A stretch of DNA of 64,000 bases, taken from positions 124,001-188,000 of the forward strand of contig NZ_BBYK01000048.1 of the NCBI RefSeq assembly GCF_001570365.1, given 5' to 3'. The position numbers and the translations under genes were made by a program. Origin of the DNA: Microtetraspora fusca. GTDB taxonomy: Bacteria > Actinomycetota > Actinomycetes > Streptosporangiales > Streptosporangiaceae. This document shows positions 23,233 through 33,370 of the stretch, piece after piece (position 1 is the first letter of the stretch; the number at the start of each line of letters is the position of its first letter). The notes under the pieces are model-generated. The model did no database searches. It saw only the letters and a program-made list of their open reading frames with translations, and was not told the DNA's origin.

Positions 23233-24370
23233 CCTCATCCGGCGGATCGACGCGGTGACTCCCGCCGGCCGCGACCGTGCCGTGGACGCGCTGCGCGCCC
23301 TGGCCGTCGGCGGTGTGGTGGTCGGCCACTGGCTGGTGACCGCCCTGGTTCTCGACAGCGGCACGGTGCGTACCGCCAGCCCGCTGCGCTCCATGCCGCA
23401 GCTCGCCCCCTTTTCCTGGACGTTCCAGACGTTGGCGGTCTTCTTCCTGGTGGGCGGCTGGACGGGGGCGCGTGGCTACGCCTCGGCGCGTGCCCGAGGC
23501 CGGACGTACGGACGGTGGCTGGGCGGGCGGATGGCCCGCCTGTCGCGGCCGGTCGCCGTCGTGCCGGCCGTATGGGTCCTGGTCGCCGTGGTGCTCCTCG
23601 CCTCCGGCGCCGGGCTGGAGACCGTGCGCGTGCTGGTCAAGCTGGTGTACTCCCCGTTGTGGTTCCTGCTGGTCTTCGCGGCGCTGACGGCGGCGACCCC
23701 GCTGGCGGCGAAGCTGCACCCGCTGTGGCCGTTCGCCGCCGTCGCGCTCGTCGACCTGGTCCGGTACGGCCTGGGCGGGCCCGCCTGGCTCGGCTGGATC
23801 AACGTGGCCGCCGGCTGGCTGGTGCCGTACTGCCTGGGGGCGGCGTGGGGGCGGGGCGGTCTGCGCGGCGGCGCGACCGGATGGGTTCTGCTGCTCGGCG
23901 GCGCCGCCGCCACCGCGGCGCTCATCGGCTGGGGCGGCTATCCGGTCGCCATGGTCGGGGTGCCCGGCGCCGCGATCTCCAACCTCGCCCCGCCCACCCT
24001 CGCGGCCGTCACGTTCGGGGTGGCCCAGTGCGGTGCGGCGCTGCTGCTGGCCGGCCCGCTGCGGCGGGCGCTGCGCCACCCCGTCGCCTGGGCGGTCGTG
24101 GCGCTGGTGAACCTGTCCGCGATGACGATCTTCCTCTGGCACCAGACCGCGATGATCGCGGTGACCGCCCTCGGCCTGCTCGCGGACGCGCCCGTGCCCG
24201 GCCTGCACACCGTCCCCGACAGCTCAGGCTGGGTGCTCGCCCGGCTGGCCTGGCTGCCGGCGTTCCTCCTGGCCTTGCTGGTGTGCGTGGCCGCGTTCGG
24301 CGTCCACGAGCACGGGCGGACAGTACGCGGAAAGCGCCCCACGCAGGAGTTGGAGGTGCGGCGTGCTTAG
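23222..24370 (+). CDS. Acyltransferase 3 family membrane protein
   Basis: 382 residues, ten or so hydrophobic helices. The acyltransferase-3 signature is in the N-terminal part: RAVDALRALAVGGVVVGHW, with the catalytic-site His in VGHW, followed by FFLVGG. A basic loop RARGRTYGRWLGGRMARL sits between helices. Members O-acylate sugars, lipids or peptides at the membrane from cytosolic acyl-CoA. Start GTG 23222. It overlaps the histidine-kinase start by eight bases, placing hydrolase, acyltransferase, kinase and regulator in one operon. Confidence 0.87.
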   Translation: MVRDLIRRIDAVTPAGRDRAVDALRALAVGGVVVGHWLVTALVLDSGTVRTASPLRSMPQLAPFSWTFQTLAVFFLVGGWTGARGYASARARGRTYGRWLGGRMARLSRPVAVVPAVWVLVAVVLLASGAGLETVRVLVKLVYSPLWFLLVFAALTAATPLAAKLHPLWPFAAVALVDLVRYGLGGPAWLGWINVAAGWLVPYCLGAAWGRGGLRGGATGWVLLLGGAAATAALIGWGGYPVAMVGVPGAAISNLAPPTLAAVTFGVAQCGAALLLAGPLRRALRHPVAWAVVALVNLSAMTIFLWHQTAMIAVTALGLLADAPVPGLHTVPDSSGWVLARLAWLPAFLLALLVCVAAFGVHEHGRTVRGKRPTQELEVRRA

Positions 24371-25700
24371 GGTGATTCCCGTGCAAAAGGGGGAGACAGG
24401 CGCCGGGGCGCGGTTCGTGGCGGCGCTGCGGGCGGTGCCGCGCAACCTGCGCGACGACCTGTGGACGACGGCGCATGACCCGCTATCGCGTACGGAGCGG
24501 CCCGGCTGGCGGGACTGGATGCCGGCGTTCGCGCTGGTGCTGGGGTTCACCGCGGCGTTGATCGCCATCCCCAACGTCAACCAGCTCACCGCGGTCTACG
24601 GGCTGAACATGTCGTACGCCGTGCTGCTCGGCGGACTCCAGTCGGCGGCGCTCGTCCTCGCGCTCGTCCGGCCGGTGCCGGCGTGGTGGGCGGTCACGAT
24701 CGCCATGGTCATCGTCACGGCGCTCGCGGAGCCACGCGCCCCGGACGTGTTCCTCCCCTGGACCGGCCCCGGGCTCGCCCTGCAGGCCGGAGTGTTGCTG
24801 CTCCTGGCGTTGCGGGTCCGCCCGCGGGCCGCGGTCGAGGCGCTGCTGATCAGCATTCTGGTGGGACTCGCCGGCGGCCTGTTCGTCTCCCGGGCGCACG
24901 ACTACGACATCGGTGCCGCCGCCGCGATTCTCACCACCGTGGTCGTGATCGGCGCCGCGCTGCGCGCCAGCCGGGTGGCCCGTACGGAACTGGTCATGCA
25001 GGAGGAGCTCACCGCCGAGGAGCGGGCCCGGCGCACCCTGCTGGAGGAGCGCAACCGGATCGCGCGCGAGCTGCACGACGTGCTCGCCCACCACATGTCG
25101 TTGATCTCCATCCAGGCGCAGGTCGCGCCGCACCTGGTCGAGGACCCGCCCGACGAGCTGAAGGAGAACCTCGCGGCGATCCGGGAGAACGCGGTGGAGG
25201 CGCTGACCGAGCTGCGCCGTGTGCTGGGCGTGCTGCGGTCGGAGGACCCCCTCTCGGAGGGGGCACGGCACACGCCGCAGCCCACCCTCGACCGGCTGGA
25301 CGAGCTGGTCGGCAATGTGCGCGACGCCGGGCAAACCGTCACCGCCCGGACCACCGGTGAGCCACGTCCGCTGTCGCCGGGCGTCGAGTTGTCGGCGTTT
25401 CGCATCGTCCAGGAGGCGCTCAGCAACGTGATGCGGCACGCCCCCGGAACGGAGGCGCGGGTGGAACTCGGGTACGAGCCGCACGCTCTCGCCATCCGGG
25501 TCACCAACACCGCCCCGGCCGAGCCCGCCCCGCCTTCCCGGACCGCCGGGCACGGGCTCTTGGGCATGCGCGAGCGCACGACCATGCTGGGCGGCGAACT
25601 GGCCGTCGGGTCCACCCCCGACGGGGGCTACGAAGTGACCGCGATCCTGCCCGCCACCCCGCGGAAGCCGCCCGCCAACCAGGTTGAGGACACCCCGTGA
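24363..25700 (+). CDS. Sensor histidine kinase, NarL-system (HisKA_3) type
   Basis: 445-residue membrane kinase. About five hydrophobic helices (residues about 45-200) form the sensor. The HisKA_3 domain has phosphoacceptor His in RNRIARELHDVLAHHMS, and the C-terminal HATPase_c has NVMRHAPG-like N box and GHGLLGMRERTTMLGG. No extracytoplasmic domain of any size, so it senses at or within the membrane. ATGA overlap with the response regulator at 25697. Start GTG 24363; a second candidate is GTG 24382. Confidence 0.93.
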   Translation: MLRVIPVQKGETGAGARFVAALRAVPRNLRDDLWTTAHDPLSRTERPGWRDWMPAFALVLGFTAALIAIPNVNQLTAVYGLNMSYAVLLGGLQSAALVLALVRPVPAWWAVTIAMVIVTALAEPRAPDVFLPWTGPGLALQAGVLLLLALRVRPRAAVEALLISILVGLAGGLFVSRAHDYDIGAAAAILTTVVVIGAALRASRVARTELVMQEELTAEERARRTLLEERNRIARELHDVLAHHMSLISIQAQVAPHLVEDPPDELKENLAAIRENAVEALTELRRVLGVLRSEDPLSEGARHTPQPTLDRLDELVGNVRDAGQTVTARTTGEPRPLSPGVELSAFRIVQEALSNVMRHAPGTEARVELGYEPHALAIRVTNTAPAEPAPPSRTAGHGLLGMRERTTMLGGELAVGSTPDGGYEVTAILPATPRKPPANQVEDTP

Positions 25701-26368
25701 CGAACATCCGCGTACTGATCGCCGACGACCAGATGATGGTCCGCCAGGGCTTCACGGTGCTGCTCAACGCCGAGCCCGGCATCGAGGTCGTCGGCCAGGC
25801 CGTGGACGGCCTCGACGCCGTCGCCAAGGTCGCCGAGCTCGCCCCGGACGTCGTCCTGATGGACATCCGGATGCCCCAGCTCGGCGGCATCGAGGCGACC
25901 CGCCGGATCACGGCGCCGCCCGGCGCCGCCGTCAAGGTCCTCGTTCTGACCACCTTCGACCTCGACGAGTACGTGTACGAGGCGCTGCGCGCGGGCGCCT
26001 CCGGTTTCCTGCTGAAGGACGCCTCGGCCGCCGACCTGGCCCAGGCGGTGCGGGTGGTGGCGGCCGGCGACGCCCTGCTCGCCCCGAACATCACCAAGCG
26101 CCTCATCACCGAGTTCTCCCGGCTGACCGGCACCGCCCGCGCCCCGCTCAAGGAGCGCGTCGGCGACCTGACGGAACGCGAGTCCGAGGTGTTGTCCCTG
26201 ATCGCGCAGGGCCTGTCGAACGCGGAGATCGCCGAGCGACTGGTGGTGGCGGAGCAGACCGTGAAGTCACACGTGAGCCGCATCCTGGTCAAGCTGGGCC
26301 TGCGCGACCGTACCCAGGCCGCGGTCTACGCGTACGAGACGGGACTGGTGCGCCCGTCCGGACAGTAG
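25697..26368 (+). CDS. Response regulator, NarL/LuxR family
   Basis: 223 residues. Receiver domain with DDQ (N-terminal acid pair), phosphoacceptor Asp in VVLMDIRMPQ near residue 55, and Lys in FLLKDAS. C-terminal LuxR HTH with LTERESEVLSLIAQGLSNAEIAERL and VKSHVSRILVKLGLRDR. It is the partner of the kinase immediately upstream and ends the operon. Targets unknown; the hydrolase/acyltransferase genes ahead are the natural candidates. Confidence 0.95.
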   Translation: MTNIRVLIADDQMMVRQGFTVLLNAEPGIEVVGQAVDGLDAVAKVAELAPDVVLMDIRMPQLGGIEATRRITAPPGAAVKVLVLTTFDLDEYVYEALRAGASGFLLKDASAADLAQAVRVVAAGDALLAPNITKRLITEFSRLTGTARAPLKERVGDLTERESEVLSLIAQGLSNAEIAERLVVAEQTVKSHVSRILVKLGLRDRTQAAVYAYETGLVRPSGQ

Positions 26369-26435: not shown

Positions 26436-27296
26436 TCATGACCGATCCCGGTCGCCGGCGTCCTCGTCGTCCGGCTGTGCCGAGCGGACGATGTTGGTGG
26501 CGCGGGCATGCTCCCACGCGCCGGCCTCCAACTGCTCGACCCACAGCACGCGGGCCGGCTCCTCCCCCGGGTTGTCCCAGGCGAACGGGGTGTGAGCGGG
26601 CAGAATGACCGAATCGCCGTCCGCCAGGACGATCTCCTCCTCGTCGGGAAGCGTGACCCGCAACCGACCGGCCAGGACGAAGGCGAACGACTCCCCGGGA
26701 CGGGCGTAGGCGCCGTGACTGGCCTCGCCGGGTGGCACGGTGAGCAGCGACGACTCCATCCGGTATCCGGGCAGCGTGAGCTCCTCCCAGATCACACCGC
26801 CGGCGAACAGTCCACGAGCGCGCTCGTCCTGGCGCACGACCATCGTTCCCTGGGCGCGGAACGTGGCGAGCGCGCTCGGCGGCACGAGCAGGGCGTCCGC
26901 GATGCGCATGATGAGCTGTGTGGAGACGCCGGTGTCACCGCGCTCGACCGCGCCGAGATGGGCGGGCGACACTCCGACCATCTCCGCGAGCTCTTTCAGG
27001 GTGAGCCCGCCGGCCCGTCTGGCGTCCCGTATCGCCCTGTTGTCCTCCCAGCGGCGCCTGCCCCCCTCGGGGGCGGACTCCTGGGCCAGGGACGTGCGGA
27101 TCGCCGCCGGATTCCAGCCCTGTCTACGGCGCAGGTCGGCGATGCGCAACGCCCGCGCCAGATGCTCGTCGGTGTAGCGCCGCTGGCCGCCGCCACTGCG
27201 GTCGGGAACCAGCAGCCCCTGCGATTCCCAGACCCGCAACGTCTGCGGGCTCACGCCGACCGCCGCGGCGACCTCGCCGATCGTGCGGTACGTCAT
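26436..27296 (-). CDS. Three-domain transcriptional regulator: MerR HTH + XRE HTH + cupin
   Basis: 286 residues. Residues 1-70 form a MerR winged helix (TIGEVAAAVGVSPQTLRVWESQGLL; RRYTDEHLARALRI). Residues about 86-142 form a complete XRE/Cro HTH (LTLKELAEMVGVSPAHLGAVERG). Residues about 180-255 are a cupin_2 domain (PGESFAFVLAGRLRV; LADGDSVILPAHTPFAWDN). XRE-cupin regulators usually govern nitrogen-compound, polyamine or amino-acid catabolism; the extra MerR domain is uncommon. It faces the permease-hydrolase operon with a perfect dyad in the shared promoter, so it is the obvious local regulator, with the cupin sensing a pathway metabolite (inference). Confidence 0.9.
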   Translation of the reverse strand: MTYRTIGEVAAAVGVSPQTLRVWESQGLLVPDRSGGGQRRYTDEHLARALRIADLRRRQGWNPAAIRTSLAQESAPEGGRRRWEDNRAIRDARRAGGLTLKELAEMVGVSPAHLGAVERGDTGVSTQLIMRIADALLVPPSALATFRAQGTMVVRQDERARGLFAGGVIWEELTLPGYRMESSLLTVPPGEASHGAYARPGESFAFVLAGRLRVTLPDEEEIVLADGDSVILPAHTPFAWDNPGEEPARVLWVEQLEAGAWEHARATNIVRSAQPDDEDAGDRDRS

Positions 27297-27332
27297 GGAT
27301 CGCGAGTTTAGCGGGACGCCGGGGATCGACTA

Positions 27333-27362
27333 TCGACAAACCTACATTTCTTTTGTAGGTTT
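27333..27362 (+). promoter_or_regulatory. Promoter with embedded dyad upstream of the permease-hydrolase operon
   Basis: TCGACA (27333-27338), a 17-base spacer and TAGGTT (27356-27361) make a good actinobacterial promoter. Overlaid is a perfect inverted repeat, AAACCTAC at 27338-27345 and GTAGGTTT at 27355-27362, separated by ATTTCTTTT. A dyad inside the -35/-10 spacer is the classic MerR-type arrangement and fits the regulator divergently encoded from 27296. The segment is strikingly AT-rich for this genome. Confidence 0.72.
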
Positions 27363-27393
27363 CCCTCACCGTTTTCCAACGCTCTCGGTGGAG

Positions 27394-29658
27394 ATGCCCT
27401 TGAGCAGCCACGTTTCCGTCTCCTCCCATCCCCACTCCACCTCCACACCCGCGCGACTCCTGCGCATGATCGAGGTTCGCTCCATCGACTACATCCCGTC
27501 GTCCGAACGTCGGGGCAAGGCCTGGCACCAGGCGCCGTTCTGGTTCACCGGCCAGCTCGTGGTCTCCACGATCATCGTCGGGTTCATCGGGCCCGCTCAG
27601 GGCCTGTCGGTGGGCCTGTCGATCCTGGCCAGTGCGTTGGGTGCTCTGGCGGGGGCATTCCTCATGGCCTTCCACGCCAACCAGGGCCCGACCATGGGCC
27701 TGCCGCAGATGGTCCAGTCCAGGGCGCAGTTCGGCGTCAAGGGCGCCGCCCTGCCGATGCTCGGCGCGATCTTCCTCTACGTGGGGCTCAGCGTGTTCGG
27801 CGTCGTGCTCGGCGGCCAGGCGATCTCGCTGGTGCTACCGGGCCCCCCGCTCATGTGGGGGGCGGGCGTGGTGGTGCTCGCCACTCTGCTGGCCGTCGTC
27901 GGCCACGACCTGCTGCACGCTGTGCTGCGGTGGCTGTCGTACCTGGTGGCGCCGGTCTTCGTCGTACTGACCGTGCTCGCCCTGGTCCACCTCCACCCTC
28001 AACCGGCCAGCGGAGAAACGAACACGCCGGCCGCGATGCTGGTCCAGTTCGTCGCCGCCGCGGGATACCTGCTGGGATACGCGGTCTACGTCTCCGACTA
28101 CTCGCGCTACCTGCCGGCGTCCACCTCCCCCAGGGCGGTCATCGGCTGGACCTATCTGGGCGCCGCGGCGTCCGCGATCTGGCTGATGTCGCTCGGCTCG
28201 TTCATCGCCTCCTCCGTGCCGGTCGCGGACGCGCTGCCGAACCTGCGGGACATCGGCGACCGGCTGTTCCCCGGGTTCGGCACGTTCGCGGTGGTGATCA
28301 CCCTGGTGCCGAGCGCGATCGCCCTGATGGGCGTCAACCTGTACGGCACGATGCTGTCCGGGGTGAGCATCGCGGCGGGTTTCCGCCCCATCGCTCTGTC
28401 GGTGCGGGCCCGGGTGATCGGGATCGTGGCCGGCGGCGCGTGCGCCTTCCTGGTCGCGCTGGCGATGCCGGACGCCTATCTCGGCGCCTTCAACGACTTC
28501 GTCACGATGGTGCTGTACCTGCTGGTGCCCTGGTCCGCGGTGAACCTCGTCGACTACTACTGGGTGCGGCGCGGCCGCTACGCGATCACGGCGCTGTTCG
28601 ACCAGAACGGCATTTACGGCCGGTGGGGCGTCGCCGGGCTGGTCGCCTACGGGCTGGGCTTCGTGGCGATGATCCCCTTCATGTCCACCGGCTTCTTCAC
28701 CGGCCCGGCGGTACCCGCGCTCGGCGGAGCGGACATCGCGTTCGCCGTCGGACTGCTCGTCGCCGGCGGGGCCTACCTGGTGGGCAACCGGGGCTTCCAC
28801 CCGTCGAGCGAGCGGCCCGCCATCCTGGCCAGCCTGCGGCTGCTCGGCGAGGGCGCGCACGACGGCGAGCACACGGCGGACGACGTCGAGCGGCGGACCG
28901 TCGACACCGCGACGGGACCTCTGTCCGTCCTCCTGCGTCGCGGTGACGAGGGGACGACGCCGGTCCTGTTCCTGCACCCGGCCAACCTGTCCGCCCGCTG
29001 CTGGCGCATGGTGGCCGAGCGGCTGCCGGCGGACCGGGGGTGGATCGCGCTCGACCTGCGCGGTCACGGGGAGTCGACCCGATCAGGCACGTACGACGTC
29101 GAGGGCTGGGCCGAGGACTGCGCGCACGTCCTGTCCTCGCTCGGCGTGCCCAGGGCACACCTGGTCGGCGGGTCGGCGAGCGCGGCCGTCGCGGTCGAGC
29201 TGGCCGCGAGGCATCCGGACCTGACCGCCTCGGTCGTCACGGTCGGCGGCGCCTTCCGCCCCGTCGACCCCGAGGAGGGCGGACTGATCGAGGAGATCGT
29301 CGCGCTCGGGTCCGAACAGGCGCTCAGGCGCCACGCCGCGGCCGAGGCGGTGGCCGTGCCCGAGGCCGCGGAGGAGGCGATCGCCGACCTCAGCCGCAAC
29401 GACGACGCCACGACGATCGCCATCTGGCGCGCGGCGGCGGCCACCGACTCGGAGCGCGCGGCGGCGACGCTGCGCCGCCCCGTGCTGGTCGTGGTGGGCG
29501 AACTCGATCGCACGTGCCCGGCCGAGGAGTCCACCTGGTTCGCCGAGGTCACCGGAGCGCGCCTGGAGGTCCTCCCGGGGATCGGCCACCTGCCGATGTA
29601 CGAGGCCCCCGATGACCTGGCGTCGCTGCTGACCGAGCACCTGCGGAGGCTCTCATGA
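27394..29658 (+). CDS. Fusion: NCS1 nucleobase-type permease + alpha/beta hydrolase
   Basis: One uninterrupted frame of 754 residues. Residues about 25-465 are an NCS1 (cytosine/purine/allantoin) symporter with twelve predicted helices: IEVRSIDYIPSSERRGKAW, GLPQMVQSRAQFGVKGAALP, SDYSRYLP and VNLVDYYWVRRGRY are family marks. After a charged linker (about 466-515) comes a complete alpha/beta hydrolase with VLFLHPANLS, nucleophile Ser594 in GGSAS (last Gly of the usual GxSxG replaced), Asp705 in VGELDRTCP and His732 in GIGHLPMY. With an even helix number both ends are cytosolic, so the hydrolase could act on substrate as it enters. Start ATG 27394 follows GGTGGAG; an in-frame ATG lies at 27469. 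Coupled by ATGA to the amidohydrolase. Ligand unknown, likely an N-heterocycle. Confidence 0.88.
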   Translation: MPLSSHVSVSSHPHSTSTPARLLRMIEVRSIDYIPSSERRGKAWHQAPFWFTGQLVVSTIIVGFIGPAQGLSVGLSILASALGALAGAFLMAFHANQGPTMGLPQMVQSRAQFGVKGAALPMLGAIFLYVGLSVFGVVLGGQAISLVLPGPPLMWGAGVVVLATLLAVVGHDLLHAVLRWLSYLVAPVFVVLTVLALVHLHPQPASGETNTPAAMLVQFVAAAGYLLGYAVYVSDYSRYLPASTSPRAVIGWTYLGAAASAIWLMSLGSFIASSVPVADALPNLRDIGDRLFPGFGTFAVVITLVPSAIALMGVNLYGTMLSGVSIAAGFRPIALSVRARVIGIVAGGACAFLVALAMPDAYLGAFNDFVTMVLYLLVPWSAVNLVDYYWVRRGRYAITALFDQNGIYGRWGVAGLVAYGLGFVAMIPFMSTGFFTGPAVPALGGADIAFAVGLLVAGGAYLVGNRGFHPSSERPAILASLRLLGEGAHDGEHTADDVERRTVDTATGPLSVLLRRGDEGTTPVLFLHPANLSARCWRMVAERLPADRGWIALDLRGHGESTRSGTYDVEGWAEDCAHVLSSLGVPRAHLVGGSASAAVAVELAARHPDLTASVVTVGGAFRPVDPEEGGLIEEIVALGSEQALRRHAAAEAVAVPEAAEEAIADLSRNDDATTIAIWRAAAATDSERAAATLRRPVLVVVGELDRTCPAEESTWFAEVTGARLEVLPGIGHLPMYEAPDDLASLLTEHLRRLS

Positions 29659-30881
29659 GAACGATCTATCGCGGCGCGGCCGTCCACGACGGCACCGGAG
29701 CGCCGCCCGTGACCGCCGACCTCGTGGTCGCCGACGGGCGGATCGAAGCCGCCGGGCATGCCGATCCCGCCACGCCCGTCGTGGACGTGTCAGGGCGCAG
29801 CATCATCCCCGGCCTGATCGACTGCCACACCCACGTCACGCTGCCGACCCTCGACCCGCTGCGGCTGATGAACACCCCGCTCTCCCACCGCTTCCTGGAG
29901 ACGGGACGTACGCTCGCCACGACACTCGACCTCGGCATCACCACCGTGCGCGACGCGGGCGGGGCGGATGCCGGCATCGCGCAGGCGGTCGCCGACGGCG
30001 TCGTCCGCGGCCCGAGGGTGCGTACGGCCATCGCGATGATCTCGCCGACCGGGGGTCACTCGGACCCCTGGCGGCTGTCCGGAGTCGACGCGCGCTGGCT
30101 GTTCCCGCTCTACCCGGGCATGCCCGACAGCGTGGCGGACGGGCCGGTCGGGCTGCGCCGCGTGGTCCGCGAGATCGTCAGGGCGGGCGCCGACGTGATC
30201 AAGGTGGCGGTCTCCGGCGGGATCAGCTCGCCGCGCGACGACCCCCGGCACTGCCAGCTCCGCCAGGACGAGCTCGGCGCCCTGGTGGAGGAGGCGGGCG
30301 CGGCGGGCCTGCGGGTGATGGCGCACGCGCACGGACCGGCGGCGATCACCGCGGCGGTCCGGGCCGGGGTGGCCTCGATCGAGCACGGGGTGTTCATCGA
30401 CGAGGAGAGCATCGCCCTGATGGTCGAGCACGGCACCTTCCTGGTGCCCACGCTCACGGCGGCGCGCGCGTTCCTCAAGGTCGCCTCGGCCGATCCGGAC
30501 AGCCTGGCCCAGGCGAGGGAGGCCGTCGCGGTACACGAGACCAACCTTCGCCGTGCGCTGGCGGCGGGGGTGCGGGTCGCGATGGGGTCGGACTCGGGGT
30601 TCTCTCCCCACGGCCGCAACCTCGACGAGCTTGCGGCCCTGGCCTCGGCCGGTCTCGATCGGGCCCAGGTGCTGCGCAGCGCGACGTCGGGCGCGGCCGA
30701 ACTGCTCGGCCTCGACCACGAGATCGGCACACTGCGGCCCGGCATGCGGGCCGACTTCTGCGTCGTGACCGGAGACCCGCTCGACTTCGCCGGGCTCGCC
30801 GACCGCATCGAGGCGGTCTACCAGGACGGCGTCCTGGTCGGCGGCACGGCGTTCACCAAGAAAGTAGAGGAAGAGAGATGA
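29655..30881 (+). CDS. Metal-dependent amidohydrolase (imidazolonepropionase/prolidase-like)
   Basis: 408-residue cytosolic enzyme of the amidohydrolase superfamily. Metal ligands: His58-x-His60 in DCHTHV, bridging Lys183 in VIKVAVSGG, His in VMAHAHG and ASIEHGV, and the last Asp in MGSDSGF. Composite beta-sandwich sequence at both ends (VVADGRIEAAG; LRPGMRADFCVVTGDPL). It would hydrolyse a cyclic amide or peptide-like C-N bond. The position directly behind the permease-hydrolase fusion and in front of a flavin-type oxidoreductase argues for ring opening of the imported compound. ATGA overlaps on both sides. Confidence 0.9.
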   Translation: MRTIYRGAAVHDGTGAPPVTADLVVADGRIEAAGHADPATPVVDVSGRSIIPGLIDCHTHVTLPTLDPLRLMNTPLSHRFLETGRTLATTLDLGITTVRDAGGADAGIAQAVADGVVRGPRVRTAIAMISPTGGHSDPWRLSGVDARWLFPLYPGMPDSVADGPVGLRRVVREIVRAGADVIKVAVSGGISSPRDDPRHCQLRQDELGALVEEAGAAGLRVMAHAHGPAAITAAVRAGVASIEHGVFIDEESIALMVEHGTFLVPTLTAARAFLKVASADPDSLAQAREAVAVHETNLRRALAAGVRVAMGSDSGFSPHGRNLDELAALASAGLDRAQVLRSATSGAAELLGLDHEIGTLRPGMRADFCVVTGDPLDFAGLADRIEAVYQDGVLVGGTAFTKKVEEER

Positions 30882-31435
30882 CGGACAACGACGTCCAGTA
30901 CATGACCCGTACCGCGTCGGCCGAGGACATCGACGAGATCCTGCGGCTGAACCGGGAGTGGTGGGAGTCCAACATCGGCTACGACATCCCCCGCATGACG
31001 GAGGTGTTCCCCTCGCCGGGCGAGGAGTACCTGATGTTCAACTTCAACGGCCACCCCTACTTCAACATGCGGGAGAAGGTCGCGCTCTGGAGCTACTACC
31101 GCGCGCGTGAGGACTTCGTCGGCAGGCCCGACGTACGGATCATGCGCCTGGAGGTGCGCGGCGACACCGCGTGGCTGGCCTGTGAGGCCAGGATCGACGA
31201 GATCGCGCTGGACGACGGCGAGCACGCGCCCGACACGAGGAACACCCTGCTGGTGCGGGCCACCGAGATCTACCACCGCGACAACGGCGACGGTCTCCCG
31301 CAGTGGCGGATGTGGCACACCCACATCAGCCCGCTCCCGCCGGCGGACGAGCCGCGGCCCGGGTTCGGCGACACCACGGAGCAGCGCGGCCTCGGCTGGG
31401 TGCCGTGGCAGCCGCTGCCCGAGCGGGAGGCGTGA
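30878..31435 (+). CDS. SnoaL/NTF2-like protein
   Basis: 185 residues, single NTF2-like cone fold (SnoaL_3-type): SAEDIDEILRLNREWWESNIGYD at the start, then MFNFNGHPYFN, DVRIMRLEVRGDTAWLACEARID and EIYHRDN strands. Members are small cyclases, isomerases or ligand-binding proteins. No invariant catalytic set can be named here, though Trp, Tyr and His line the predicted pocket. Start ATG 30878 overlaps the amidohydrolase stop and follows GAGGAAGAGAG. It shares one base with the next gene's ATG. Role in the pathway is unknown. Confidence 0.8.
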   Translation: MTDNDVQYMTRTASAEDIDEILRLNREWWESNIGYDIPRMTEVFPSPGEEYLMFNFNGHPYFNMREKVALWSYYRAREDFVGRPDVRIMRLEVRGDTAWLACEARIDEIALDDGEHAPDTRNTLLVRATEIYHRDNGDGLPQWRMWHTHISPLPPADEPRPGFGDTTEQRGLGWVPWQPLPEREA

Positions 31436-32433
31436 TGACCCGCGCCGTGCGTCCCGCCCTCGGGCTCGTGCTCGGCAGCTCGCAGTCGCCGCAGGACATC
31501 CTGACCGCCGCCGCCGCGGCCGAGCGGGCCGGTCTGGACGAACTCTGGCTCGGCGAGGACTACTTCTTCACCGGGGCCTTCGCCACCGCCGCCACACTCC
31601 TGGCCACCACGCGGTTGCCGGTCGGCGTCGGCATCGTCCCGGCCACCACGCGTCACCCGGCGGTGACCGCGATGGAGGTCGCCACCCTGGCCGGGTTGCA
31701 CCCGGGACGACTGCGCGCCGGGATCGGCCTCGGCGTACCCGAGTGGCTGGACGCGATGGAGCTGCGTCCCCGCTCTCCGCTCGGCGCGGTGCGGGACACC
31801 CTGCGCGGGTTGCGCACCCTGCTGGGGGGCGGCGCGCTCAGCGGCGAGTTCACCTCGTTCACCGCGCACGAGATCAGGCTCGAACACCCGCCGGCGACGC
31901 CGCCACCGCTGTACGCGGGGGTGGGCGGGCCCAAGGCGCTGCGGCTGTCCGCGGCCGAGGCGGACGGCACCGTGCTGTCCGTGCTGGCGGGTCCGGACTA
32001 CGTGCGCTGGGCCCGGGAACAGCTGACCGAGGCGGGAGCCCACGCCGGTCACCGGGTCGTGGTCTACGCCATGTGCATGATCGACGACGACCGTGACGCC
32101 GCGCGGGCCGCGCTGCGCGAGCTGTTCGGGTTGTACCTGCTCAGCGGACCCCGCAATCCGATGTCGGAGGTGCAGGGCATCGCCGACGAGGCGGAGGTGC
32201 TCGCGGCACGGGGAATCGAGGCCGCGATCCCCGACATCCCCGACGAGTGGCTCGACCGGCTGGCCGTCGTGGGTACGCCGGACGACTGCGCGCGCCGGCT
32301 GGCCGACCTCGCCGAGGCGGGAGCCGACGCGGTCGCGCTCGCCTTCCCGGCCGACCAGCCGATCGACACGATGGTCGAGCGGCTCGCCGCGGACGTGATC
32401 CCGCTGCTCGGCGCGACTGCGGGTGCGCGATGA
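31435..32433 (+). CDS. Luciferase-like (LLM) flavin/F420-dependent oxidoreductase
   Basis: 332-residue TIM-barrel enzyme of the bacterial luciferase-like family. It shows AAAAERAGLDELWLGEDYFF near the N-terminus, TRLPVGVGIVPATTRHP (family Nei-x-TRHP block), GRLRAGIGLGVPEWL and PPPLYAGVGGPKALRLSAAEADG. LGVP-type loops fit Mer/F420-dependent reductases as well as FMN monooxygenases such as RutA and SsuD; actinobacteria have both cofactors and the choice cannot be made by eye. No flavin reductase is in the operon, which slightly favours F420 or a shared reductase. Start ATG overlaps the previous stop by one base. Confidence 0.9.
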   Translation: MTRAVRPALGLVLGSSQSPQDILTAAAAAERAGLDELWLGEDYFFTGAFATAATLLATTRLPVGVGIVPATTRHPAVTAMEVATLAGLHPGRLRAGIGLGVPEWLDAMELRPRSPLGAVRDTLRGLRTLLGGGALSGEFTSFTAHEIRLEHPPATPPPLYAGVGGPKALRLSAAEADGTVLSVLAGPDYVRWAREQLTEAGAHAGHRVVVYAMCMIDDDRDAARAALRELFGLYLLSGPRNPMSEVQGIADEAEVLAARGIEAAIPDIPDEWLDRLAVVGTPDDCARRLADLAEAGADAVALAFPADQPIDTMVERLAADVIPLLGATAGAR

Positions 32434-33320
32434 CGTTCTCCATCGTCGCCCGCGACGAGCGGACGGGACGGCTCGGCGTCGCGGCGGCCTCGCACTTCCT
32501 CGGCGTCGGACGGCTCGCGGTGTGGGCCAGGCCCGGAGTGGGCGCGGTCGCCACCCAGGCGTTCGTCGACCCGGCCTACGGCCCGCGCGGGCTGGACCTG
32601 CTCGCCGAGGGGAACTCCCCGCGGTACGCGCTGGACCGGCTGATCGCGGACGACCCCGATCAGGGCCAGCGCCAGGTGGCGCTGGTGGACGCCGCGGGCG
32701 CGGTCGCCGTCCACACCGGACGGCACTGCTACGCCGAGGCGGAGCACTGGACCGGGCCCGGCGTGTCGGCGCAGGGCAACATGCTGGGCGCCCCGGGCAT
32801 CCCGCGCGCCATGGTCGAGGCCTTCCTCGACGCGGAAGGAGACTTCGCCGGCCGCCTGCTCGCCGCCCTACGGGCGGGCGAGCGGGCCGGCGGGGACGCC
32901 CGGGGACGGCAGTCGGCGAGCCTGTACATCGTGTCCGCGAATCGGGCCGAGCCGCCCGTCGCCGGGGTGGAGGTCGATCTTCGGGTCGACGACCACGACG
33001 ACCCGCTGGAGGAGCTCGGCCGGCTGGTCGAGCTGCACCGCGCCTACGTGGACATCGGGGTCATCTTCACGCCCGGTGTGGTCAGCGGTGACCGGGCTCC
33101 GGAGGACGACGAGGTGGCGCAGGCTCTCGCCGCGCTGTCACGCGCGGCCGGGCTTCTGCCCGGACAGGCCGAACCGCTCATGTGGACCGCCATCGTGCTC
33201 GCCCGCGCCGGTCGGCTCGACGAGGCGGCCAAGGCGAGCGCGGAGGCTGTGGCCGCCAACCCCGATCTCGGCCGCTTCTTCGACCGGCTCCGCGAGCAGG
33301 GCGTCGTCCCGGGCGCCTGA
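32430..33320 (+). CDS. DUF1028 protein with C-terminal TPR-like/peptidoglycan-binding-like extension
   Basis: 296 residues. Residues 1-210 are DUF1028: FSIVARDERTGRLGVAAASHFLGVG, VGAVATQAFVDPAYGPRGLDLL, VSAQGNMLGAPGIPRAM are its marks. Pfam groups it, as I recall, with Ntn-hydrolase folds, so an amidase-like role is possible. Residues about 212-296 are a helical extension (LEELGRLVELHRAYVDIG; LARAGRLDEAAKASAEAVAANPDL) resembling one TPR unit. DUF1028 genes recur beside amidohydrolases and RidA-like genes. Last gene of the operon, ATGA-coupled, followed by two hairpins. Confidence 0.87.
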   Translation: MTFSIVARDERTGRLGVAAASHFLGVGRLAVWARPGVGAVATQAFVDPAYGPRGLDLLAEGNSPRYALDRLIADDPDQGQRQVALVDAAGAVAVHTGRHCYAEAEHWTGPGVSAQGNMLGAPGIPRAMVEAFLDAEGDFAGRLLAALRAGERAGGDARGRQSASLYIVSANRAEPPVAGVEVDLRVDDHDDPLEELGRLVELHRAYVDIGVIFTPGVVSGDRAPEDDEVAQALAALSRAAGLLPGQAEPLMWTAIVLARAGRLDEAAKASAEAVAANPDLGRFFDRLREQGVVPGA

Positions 33321-33337
33321 GGAGGTCCGTCCGGTTC

Positions 33338-33370
33338 TCCTGGCACACGCCCACCACACGTGTGCCAGGA
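33338..33370 (+). terminator. Terminator hairpin of the permease-hydrolase operon
   Basis: TCCTGGCACACG (33338-33349) and CGTGTGCCAGGA (33359-33370) form a perfect 12-bp stem with a 9-base loop, 17 bases after the DUF1028 stop. No U-tract. Confidence 0.75.

Follow-up and report, generated by a model that had tools for sequence, protein, structure and literature searches.

Permeases of the NCS1 superfamily are importers of nucleobases and drugs, and are known as stand-alone proteins. The Rut pyrimidine operon combines a luciferase-like enzyme, an alpha/beta hydrolase, a nucleobase-type transporter and an amide hydrolase. MetT, the metformin NCS1 transporter of Aminobacter, falls in none of the characterised nucleobase clades; its gene is clustered with that of an enzyme of the ureohydrolase superfamily, and its conserved pocket residues are W43, F47, W117, W231 and T260 (PMC13390362). 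In the present study a window of 64,000 nucleotides from the soil bacterium Microtetraspora fusca was analysed, in which an NCS1 permease and a complete alpha/beta hydrolase are encoded as a single chain. This is a genuine gene fusion, in which known families form a new domain combination and architecture. The gene belongs to a six-gene cassette, which comprises a divergent MerR/XRE-cupin regulator and the genes for the permease-hydrolase, an amidohydrolase, a SnoaL-like protein, a luciferase-like (LLM) oxidoreductase and a DUF1028 protein. Narrow literature searches, covering open-licence papers only and thus giving weak evidence of absence, returned no paper on such a fusion.

The fusion gene (27394-29658, forward strand) is a single uninterrupted open reading frame of 754 codons, running from an ATG at 27394, which is preceded by the purine-rich GGTGGAG, to a TGA at 29656-29658. 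The permease domain (residues 26-487; 27469-28854) matched the Pfam family Transp_cyt_pur (PF02133) at residues 33-453 with 132.8 bits against a cut-off of 23.5, over the entire profile (1-440 of 440). The alpha/beta hydrolase domain (residues 498-754; 28885-29655) matched Abhydrolase_1 (PF00561) at residues 523-739 with 53.8 bits against a cut-off of 25.8. Between them lies a linker of variable length (residues about 484-497; 28843-28884), placed by the alignment, by the list of start codons and by a predicted local distance difference test (pLDDT) below 50 at residues 488-497 of the full-length AlphaFold2 (AF2) model. The putative catalytic residues Ser594 (in a GGSAS motif; 29173-29175), Asp705 (29506-29508) and His732 (29587-29589) correspond to columns S101, D212 and H239 of the hydrolase alignment A3, and were invariant in all 11 aligned hydrolases, fused and unfused, as was an HPxN motif. 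In codons 460-499 the third-position G+C content was 1.0; every 20-codon block of codons 400-599 lay at 0.8-1.0, and the gene as a whole at 0.94. This pattern is unbroken at the junction, indicating that coding runs through the domain boundary. The first-pass annotation had described a continuous frame, two complete halves and this same triad at the same positions, and all three descriptions were borne out by the Pfam coverage, the AF2 folds and the alignments.

Six short peptide patterns were searched for in 84,980 species genomes, which yielded 36 confirmed loci. Two of these encoded the full-length fused chain, in Nonomuraea spiralis (L038) and Nonomuraea sediminis (L067). Their proteins were 90% and 85% identical, respectively, to the window fusion, as measured in alignment A1, which served only for identities to its first sequence (A2 and A3 were built in its place). 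The three chains align end to end, and both Nonomuraea linkers are shorter by the same seven residues. As the N. spiralis and N. sediminis assemblies carry the same single-chain gene, the join is not a sequencing error. The alternative of an assembly or sequencing artefact, with a lost stop codon or a frameshift, is considered negligible, as it would have to explain the same join in three separate assemblies, a linker length difference that is a multiple of three, and the codon composition at the junction. A sequencing error or missed stop was rejected on these grounds. The first-pass annotation had named a sequencing error near 28800-28950 and homologues uniformly encoded as two genes as what would refute the fusion, and had proposed a search for the same two-domain architecture; that architecture was found in both Nonomuraea species, which answers both points.

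The fusion is real but narrowly distributed. Among 341 genomes of the family, 66 permease matches at E≤1e-60 were listed and three of them covered both domains, namely those of the window, N. spiralis and N. sediminis; at most three candidates were scored per genome, so that the numbers of places are lower bounds. In a phylum-wide draw of 396 genomes the two-domain span occurred in one of 17 places, and in a class-wide draw of 394 genomes (E≤1e-120) in one of four, in each case the window itself; two candidates were scored per genome in these draws, and the survey sets overlap. The fusion was present in one of four genomes of the window's own genus, and a search of 60 relatives gave no further two-domain match among the matches listed. 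Matches by tblastn extended beyond residue 500 in five loci (L043, L049, L058, L068 and L071), and the cassette hydrolase was not found at any of these. These surveys agree with the initial statement that NCS1 proteins are normally stand-alone.

In the AF2 model the permease part had pLDDT values mostly above 90, and 12 membrane helices were read from its helix list, the number given in the first-pass annotation. Foldseek ranks 1-5 for the full model were all Mhp1 (4d1a, 2jln, 2x79) or CodB (7qoa), among them Mhp1 4d1a (E 2.5e-10, TM score by target 0.75) and CodB 7qoa_B (E 4.5e-10, TM score by target 0.82). The permease is thus predicted to have a 12-helix fold of the LeuT type, close to Mhp1 and CodB. 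Its score for the NCBIfam model TIGR00800 was 111.9 bits, under the cut-off of 353.1, and by profile scores it is assigned to the NCS1 superfamily, outside the TIGR00800 nucleobase:cation symporter subfamily. Lysine and arginine residues numbered 17 in the N-terminus, inside loops and C-terminal stretch and two in the outside loops, in a topology that was self-assigned. This bias predicts that the hydrolase is in the cytosol, as the first-pass annotation had proposed. Both termini of Mhp1 are cytosolic, as is predicted for the fusion.

The hydrolase modelled alone gave a mean pLDDT of 93.5. The full-length model, built from alignment A2, folds the hydrolase part poorly, and contacts between the two domains are therefore unreadable from it. 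By VIA-align, the nearest solved folds belonged to an enol-lactonase, to perhydrolases and to small esterases, with Z values of 32-33.5 over 246-252 aligned residues (root-mean-square deviation 1.7-2.5), the best match having a Z of 33.5 and a deviation of 1.9 over 252 residues. The model also aligned nearly as well with D14 (Z 30.7) and RsbQ (Z 30.2), which might indicate that the C-terminal domain is a non-catalytic sensor of this kind that gates the transporter. This is highly improbable, since all 11 aligned hydrolases have an intact triad, seven relatives encode the domain by a gene of its own, and the 50 Z values listed all lie within the narrow range of 30.0-33.5, which takes in many groups of hydrolases.

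The fused protein is probably an importer and hydrolase in one chain, encoded by a catabolic operon that is compact and regulated, with the hydrolase of the pathway held on the cytosolic side of the membrane. The permease half would take up a small nitrogen compound by the alternating-access mechanism of Mhp1 and CodB and release it at the cytosolic face, and the hydrolase would hang by a flexible linker from the cytosolic C-terminus of the permease. It would cleave an ester, lactone, lactam or amide bond, in the imported compound or in an intermediate formed early in the pathway. The breakdown would be finished by the luciferase-like oxidoreductase and the amidohydrolase, in place of which the relatives have an M20 deacylase, and the MerR/XRE-cupin protein would sense the substrate at a palindrome before the fusion gene. 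The minimal consequence of the fusion would be a fixed 1:1 ratio of hydrolase to permease and membrane tethering. Capture or processing of the substrate on entry, as suggested in the first-pass annotation, is possible.

It was also considered that, through an internal start or a cut in the linker, the hydrolase might be produced additionally, or exclusively, as a protein of its own. The linker is variable and modelled with low confidence, and in-frame GTG codons occur at positions 505 and 518 of the N. spiralis chain and 524 of the N. sediminis chain. Against this, the start-codon list holds no in-frame ATG, GTG or TTG in codons 464-538 of the window gene, and the first of these start codons past the junction is the ATG at codon 539, beyond the first hydrolase strands and the HPxN motif. 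An intact separate hydrolase could therefore initiate only at a rarer codon, such as CTG, in the window gene, and this explanation is considered very unlikely.

Seven loci (L040, L041, L042, L051, L128, L129 and L142) carried the cassette with separate permease and hydrolase genes. These belong to Embleya scabrispora, Embleya hyalina, Actinomadura chibensis, Amycolatopsis jejuensis, two members of the window's family (G320 and G321) and, as the seventh, Embleya sp. NBC_00888. The regulator, hydrolase, SnoaL, LLM, DUF1028 and permease genes were held together in these clusters. An M20 hydrolase was present in all seven, the one that was scored (L041) being of the ArgE/DapE type, and the amidohydrolase of the fused clusters was seen in none of them. 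The amidohydrolase-superfamily gene of the fused clusters (window 29655-30881) stands in place of the M20 gene of the unfused ones, which has the appearance of a swap of unrelated metallo-hydrolases at one step. In A. jejuensis the DUF1028 gene (L051, 12541-13406) was in two pieces in different frames, from a frameshift or a sequencing error. In a search of a plasmid collection with the hydrolase DNA a single record matched, that of Embleya sp. NBC_00888; the plasmid records H1 and H2 had no annotation at the matched position.

In G321 and G320 (L128 and L129) the gene order was that of the window, and the permease stop and hydrolase start overlapped as ATGA, in different frames. At this place the fused chains retain nearly all of both native ends, which points to an end-to-end join. 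The fused sequences formed one clade in both trees (support 100/99 for the permease and 97/99 for the hydrolase), which fits one fusion event, and the fusion is apparently of single origin. It probably arose by in-frame joining of overlapping, translationally coupled permease and hydrolase genes, for which the arrangement in G320 and G321 is a plausible earlier state. A permease clade of 10 (support 100/100) contained the hydrolase cassette in nine members, the window included. The permease homologue of G016 (L037, 7195-8576) was in two pieces, one with an internal TGA, and is perhaps a decaying gene.

The fusion gene is the first gene on its side of the regulator, which is a protein of 286 amino acids with a MerR helix-turn-helix, an XRE-type helix-turn-helix and a cupin domain (26436-27296, reverse strand; PF13411, PF01381 and PF07883). 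The amidohydrolase-superfamily gene (29655-30881; PF01979) has a start that overlaps the fusion stop as ATGA; its best NCBIfam match was the Xaa-Pro dipeptidase model NF051886, at 270.5 bits, under the cut-off of 500. It is followed, also on the forward strand, by the genes for the SnoaL-like protein (30878-31435; 185 amino acids; PF13474, 27.2 bits, cut-off 22), the LLM oxidoreductase (31432-32433; GTG start; PF00296) and the DUF1028 protein (32430-33320; ATG start; 296 amino acids; PF06267, 238.9 bits). The LLM protein resembles the F420 family, and its best NCBIfam matches were F420/Mer families, all under cut-off. Each gene after the fusion overlaps its predecessor, at the stop, by four bases, the last two starts having been picked by homology to N. 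spiralis (L038). No paper was found in the open-licence literature for terms describing the cassette, or naming DUF1028.

An orthologue of the regulator (48-90% identity) stood divergently beside the cassette in all eight other cassette loci (L038, L040, L041, L042, L051, L067, L128 and L129, with the duplicates L126, L127 and L130 uncounted), and also in L142. A palindrome, AAACCTACA-N7-TGTAGGTTT, lies between the divergent genes (27338-27362) and is a possible operator of the regulator. With three mismatches allowed, a search pattern derived from the site itself matched the window once, where 0.01 was expected, and this was the sole match in the 9,023,190-base genome at up to two mismatches. 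The same pattern run backwards as a control gave two matches per strand, so that the genome scan says only that no wider regulon was seen. A related motif could be read by eye in the same gap of eight other clusters. The inverted-repeat test reported it in three of the eight (L128, L042 and L051); in L038, L067, L129, L040 and L041 the motif was less symmetrical or another repeat scored. Neither a sigma-70-type promoter nor a terminator was found at 27290-29900. A histidine kinase-response regulator gene pair preceded the cassette in the window (24363-26368) and in N. sediminis (L067, 5293-7073), and not in N. spiralis.

DNA comparison with N. spiralis gave 91% identity over 26463-33369 of the window and no match elsewhere in that 18-kb locus. 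With N. sediminis the identity was 88% over 26467-33308, with weaker matches of 68% over 594 bases, in the response-regulator gene beside the regulator, and of 71% over 128 bases elsewhere. The window and N. spiralis thus have the cassette in common as one block, set in different surroundings, and N. sediminis may share one flank. A mobile cassette is a possibility that is suggested by the sharp match ends in N. spiralis and weakened by the flank match in N. sediminis and by the kinase-regulator pair that precedes the cassette there as in the window. The genome G001, of the same genus as the window, held a 1.3-kb remnant of the cassette (L136, 8055-9361), with the SnoaL end and most of the LLM gene at 91-93% identity.

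The gene neighbourhoods of relatives were examined for clues to the substrate, using blast against one representative per family; one or two members per family were themselves scored. Among 29 loci that lack the cassette hydrolase and have a permease of 37-68% identity, CN-hydrolases were present in 18, ureohydrolases in 14 and amidases in six; 26 of the 29 held at least one of these, the others being L050, L068 and L070. Close unfused permeases (L047, L052, L060, L061, L063, L071 and others) were beside amidases, often with ureohydrolases, or beside CN-hydrolases, and such loci are candidate uptake systems for guanidino compounds or amides. A flavin amine oxidase was near the permease in six Pseudomonas loci. 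More distant clusters shared relatives of the SnoaL and DUF1028 proteins, some with LLM or the hydrolase (36-50% identity; 28% for LLM in L141). Among these, L138 (with SnoaL, DUF1028 and LLM) encoded an allantoinase/dihydroorotase-like protein, below the cut-offs, and an allantoate-amidohydrolase/carbamoylase, above its cut-off, and L139 (with SnoaL and DUF1028) added an isochorismatase, an arginase-family protein and both hydantoinase A and hydantoinase B. L140 alone among the distant clusters combined all four of the SnoaL, hydrolase, DUF1028 and LLM genes; L137 was used solely through its BLAST matches and its hydrolase frame. The DUF1028 gene (window 32430-33320; L138, 8908-9819; L140, 9805-10728) recurs with SnoaL-like, often LLM and sometimes hydrolase genes, and genes that by eye encode a peptide-type ATP-binding cassette (ABC) transporter also stood beside the DUF1028 and SnoaL-like genes in L138. 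On balance, these neighbourhoods favour the import and breakdown of a small nitrogen compound with amide-type bonds; our guess at its class is a cyclic amide or ureide first and a guanidino compound second.

The permease may instead carry a guanidino compound, as MetT does, with the hydrolase trimming an attached acyl or ester group. The ureohydrolases in the above neighbourhoods were of the agmatinase family, which together with the CN-hydrolases would suit this explanation, and the cassette of L042 includes a ureohydrolase. Metformin is the substrate of MetT, whose NCS1 clade is likewise linked to an enzyme of the ureohydrolase superfamily (PMC13390362). However, a ureohydrolase was absent from the six window genes and from seven of the eight other cassette loci, and the likeness to MetT is one of gene neighbourhood. 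A guanidino substrate of this kind is considered rather unlikely.

The ratio of non-synonymous to synonymous substitution rates (dN/dS) among the fused sequences was 0.15-0.26 for the permease and 0.47-0.56 for the hydrolase. It was 0.45-1.16 for the 33-codon junction, 1.08-3.70 for the 24-codon linker core (on at most 2.5 synonymous changes) and 1.5-1.7 for the first 25 residues of the fusion (on very few synonymous changes). For the unfused genes, the values were 0.15 (permease) and 0.55 (hydrolase) for the G321/G320 pair, and 0.18 and 0.30 for an Embleya pair. These values indicate that both domains are kept under purifying selection and that the linker and N-terminal tail are nearly free. 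The value for the fused hydrolase matches that of L128/L129 and exceeds that of Embleya, so that relaxation after the fusion, which was looked for as the mark of a dying domain, is neither shown nor excluded.

Several observations weigh against the proposed single-chain importer-hydrolase, its origin or its substrate. The nearly free evolution of the linker gives no sign of selected contacts between the domains, and the hydrolase and permease genes are not adjacent in all unfused clusters. The nearest unfused relative of the fused permease in the tree, L039, has no cassette hydrolase; with the non-adjacent genes, this means that the hydrolase need not match the imported substrate directly, and it leaves G320/G321 as a plausible rather than proven precursor. 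In the permease tree the L128/L129 pair does not branch as sister to the fused sequences, so that its overlap may be parallel and not ancestral. The lead towards a cyclic amide or ureide comes from homologues whose identity to the cassette genes is only 36-50%, and L140 shows none of the enzymes named above for L138 and L139 but, by eye, a peptide-type ABC transporter. The uniqueness of the palindrome in the genome is no greater than the backwards control allows.

Some of these points may simply reflect a functionally silent fusion, in which the compound cleaved by the hydrolase arises later in the pathway and the joining of the genes changed only stoichiometry and location, with no capture of the import. 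In L040, L041 and L142 the hydrolase gene comes first after the regulator and the permease gene last, 4-5 kb apart; the hydrolase gene thus travels with the cassette without always being beside the permease, and its product may act on a later intermediate. The nearly unconstrained linker and the restriction of the fused gene to three genomes point the same way. On the other side, three species have retained the join, at 85-90% protein identity, and purifying selection acts on both domains, although a neutral join predicts likewise. A silent fusion is a serious contender, with somewhat less than an even chance of being correct. The strongest form of coupling, in which the hydrolase, kept by its tether beneath the inward-open mouth, cleaves the import as it exits, so that irreversible hydrolysis pulls the uptake of a nitrogen compound new to NCS1 transporters, must be regarded as doubtful. 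If true, such a self-capturing secondary-active transporter would be the one-polypeptide counterpart of group translocation. The fusion ties the permease to an enzymatic step, so that the substrate may be searched for from either end, and the cassette, which exists in both fused and unfused form, offers a ready pair of orthologues for testing whether tethering an enzyme to a secondary transporter speeds uptake.

With respect to the systems already described, the cassette has the same kinds of parts as the Rut operon, and its hydrolase matched RutD (TIGR03611) weakly, at 30.5 bits (E 2.3e-7), under the cut-off of 238.5. The LLM protein matched 25 NCBIfam families, RutA not among them, the RutB, C, E and F models had no match among the six cassette genes, and RutG belongs to another transporter family than the NCS1 permease. 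The hydrolase resembles the group of 3-oxoadipate enol-lactonases and small esterases, with TIGR02427 (83.9 bits, cut-off 255.85) and PcaDC among its top family scores, all below their cut-offs, and with a fold Z of 32.7 to the enol-lactonase 2xua and of up to 33.5 to esterases and perhydrolases. It differs in being fused to a permease and in the HPxN motif that is invariant in this subgroup, and no other beta-ketoadipate genes were found among the six cassette genes with Pfam and NCBIfam. MetT is comparable in that many unfused relatives of the fused permease share their locus with agmatinase-family genes (14 of 29); it differs in standing alone and in its ureohydrolase, which the window cassette lacks, and was likened by gene context. 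The closest likeness in fold, as ranked by Foldseek, and in PF02133 membership was to Mhp1 and CodB, the transporters of hydantoin and cytosine, whose structures have been solved. These are stand-alone proteins with 17-18% identity to the permease of the fusion, in which Trp117 and Gln121 of Mhp1 appear, in a weak alignment (E 0.034), to be replaced by Tyr129 and Ser133.

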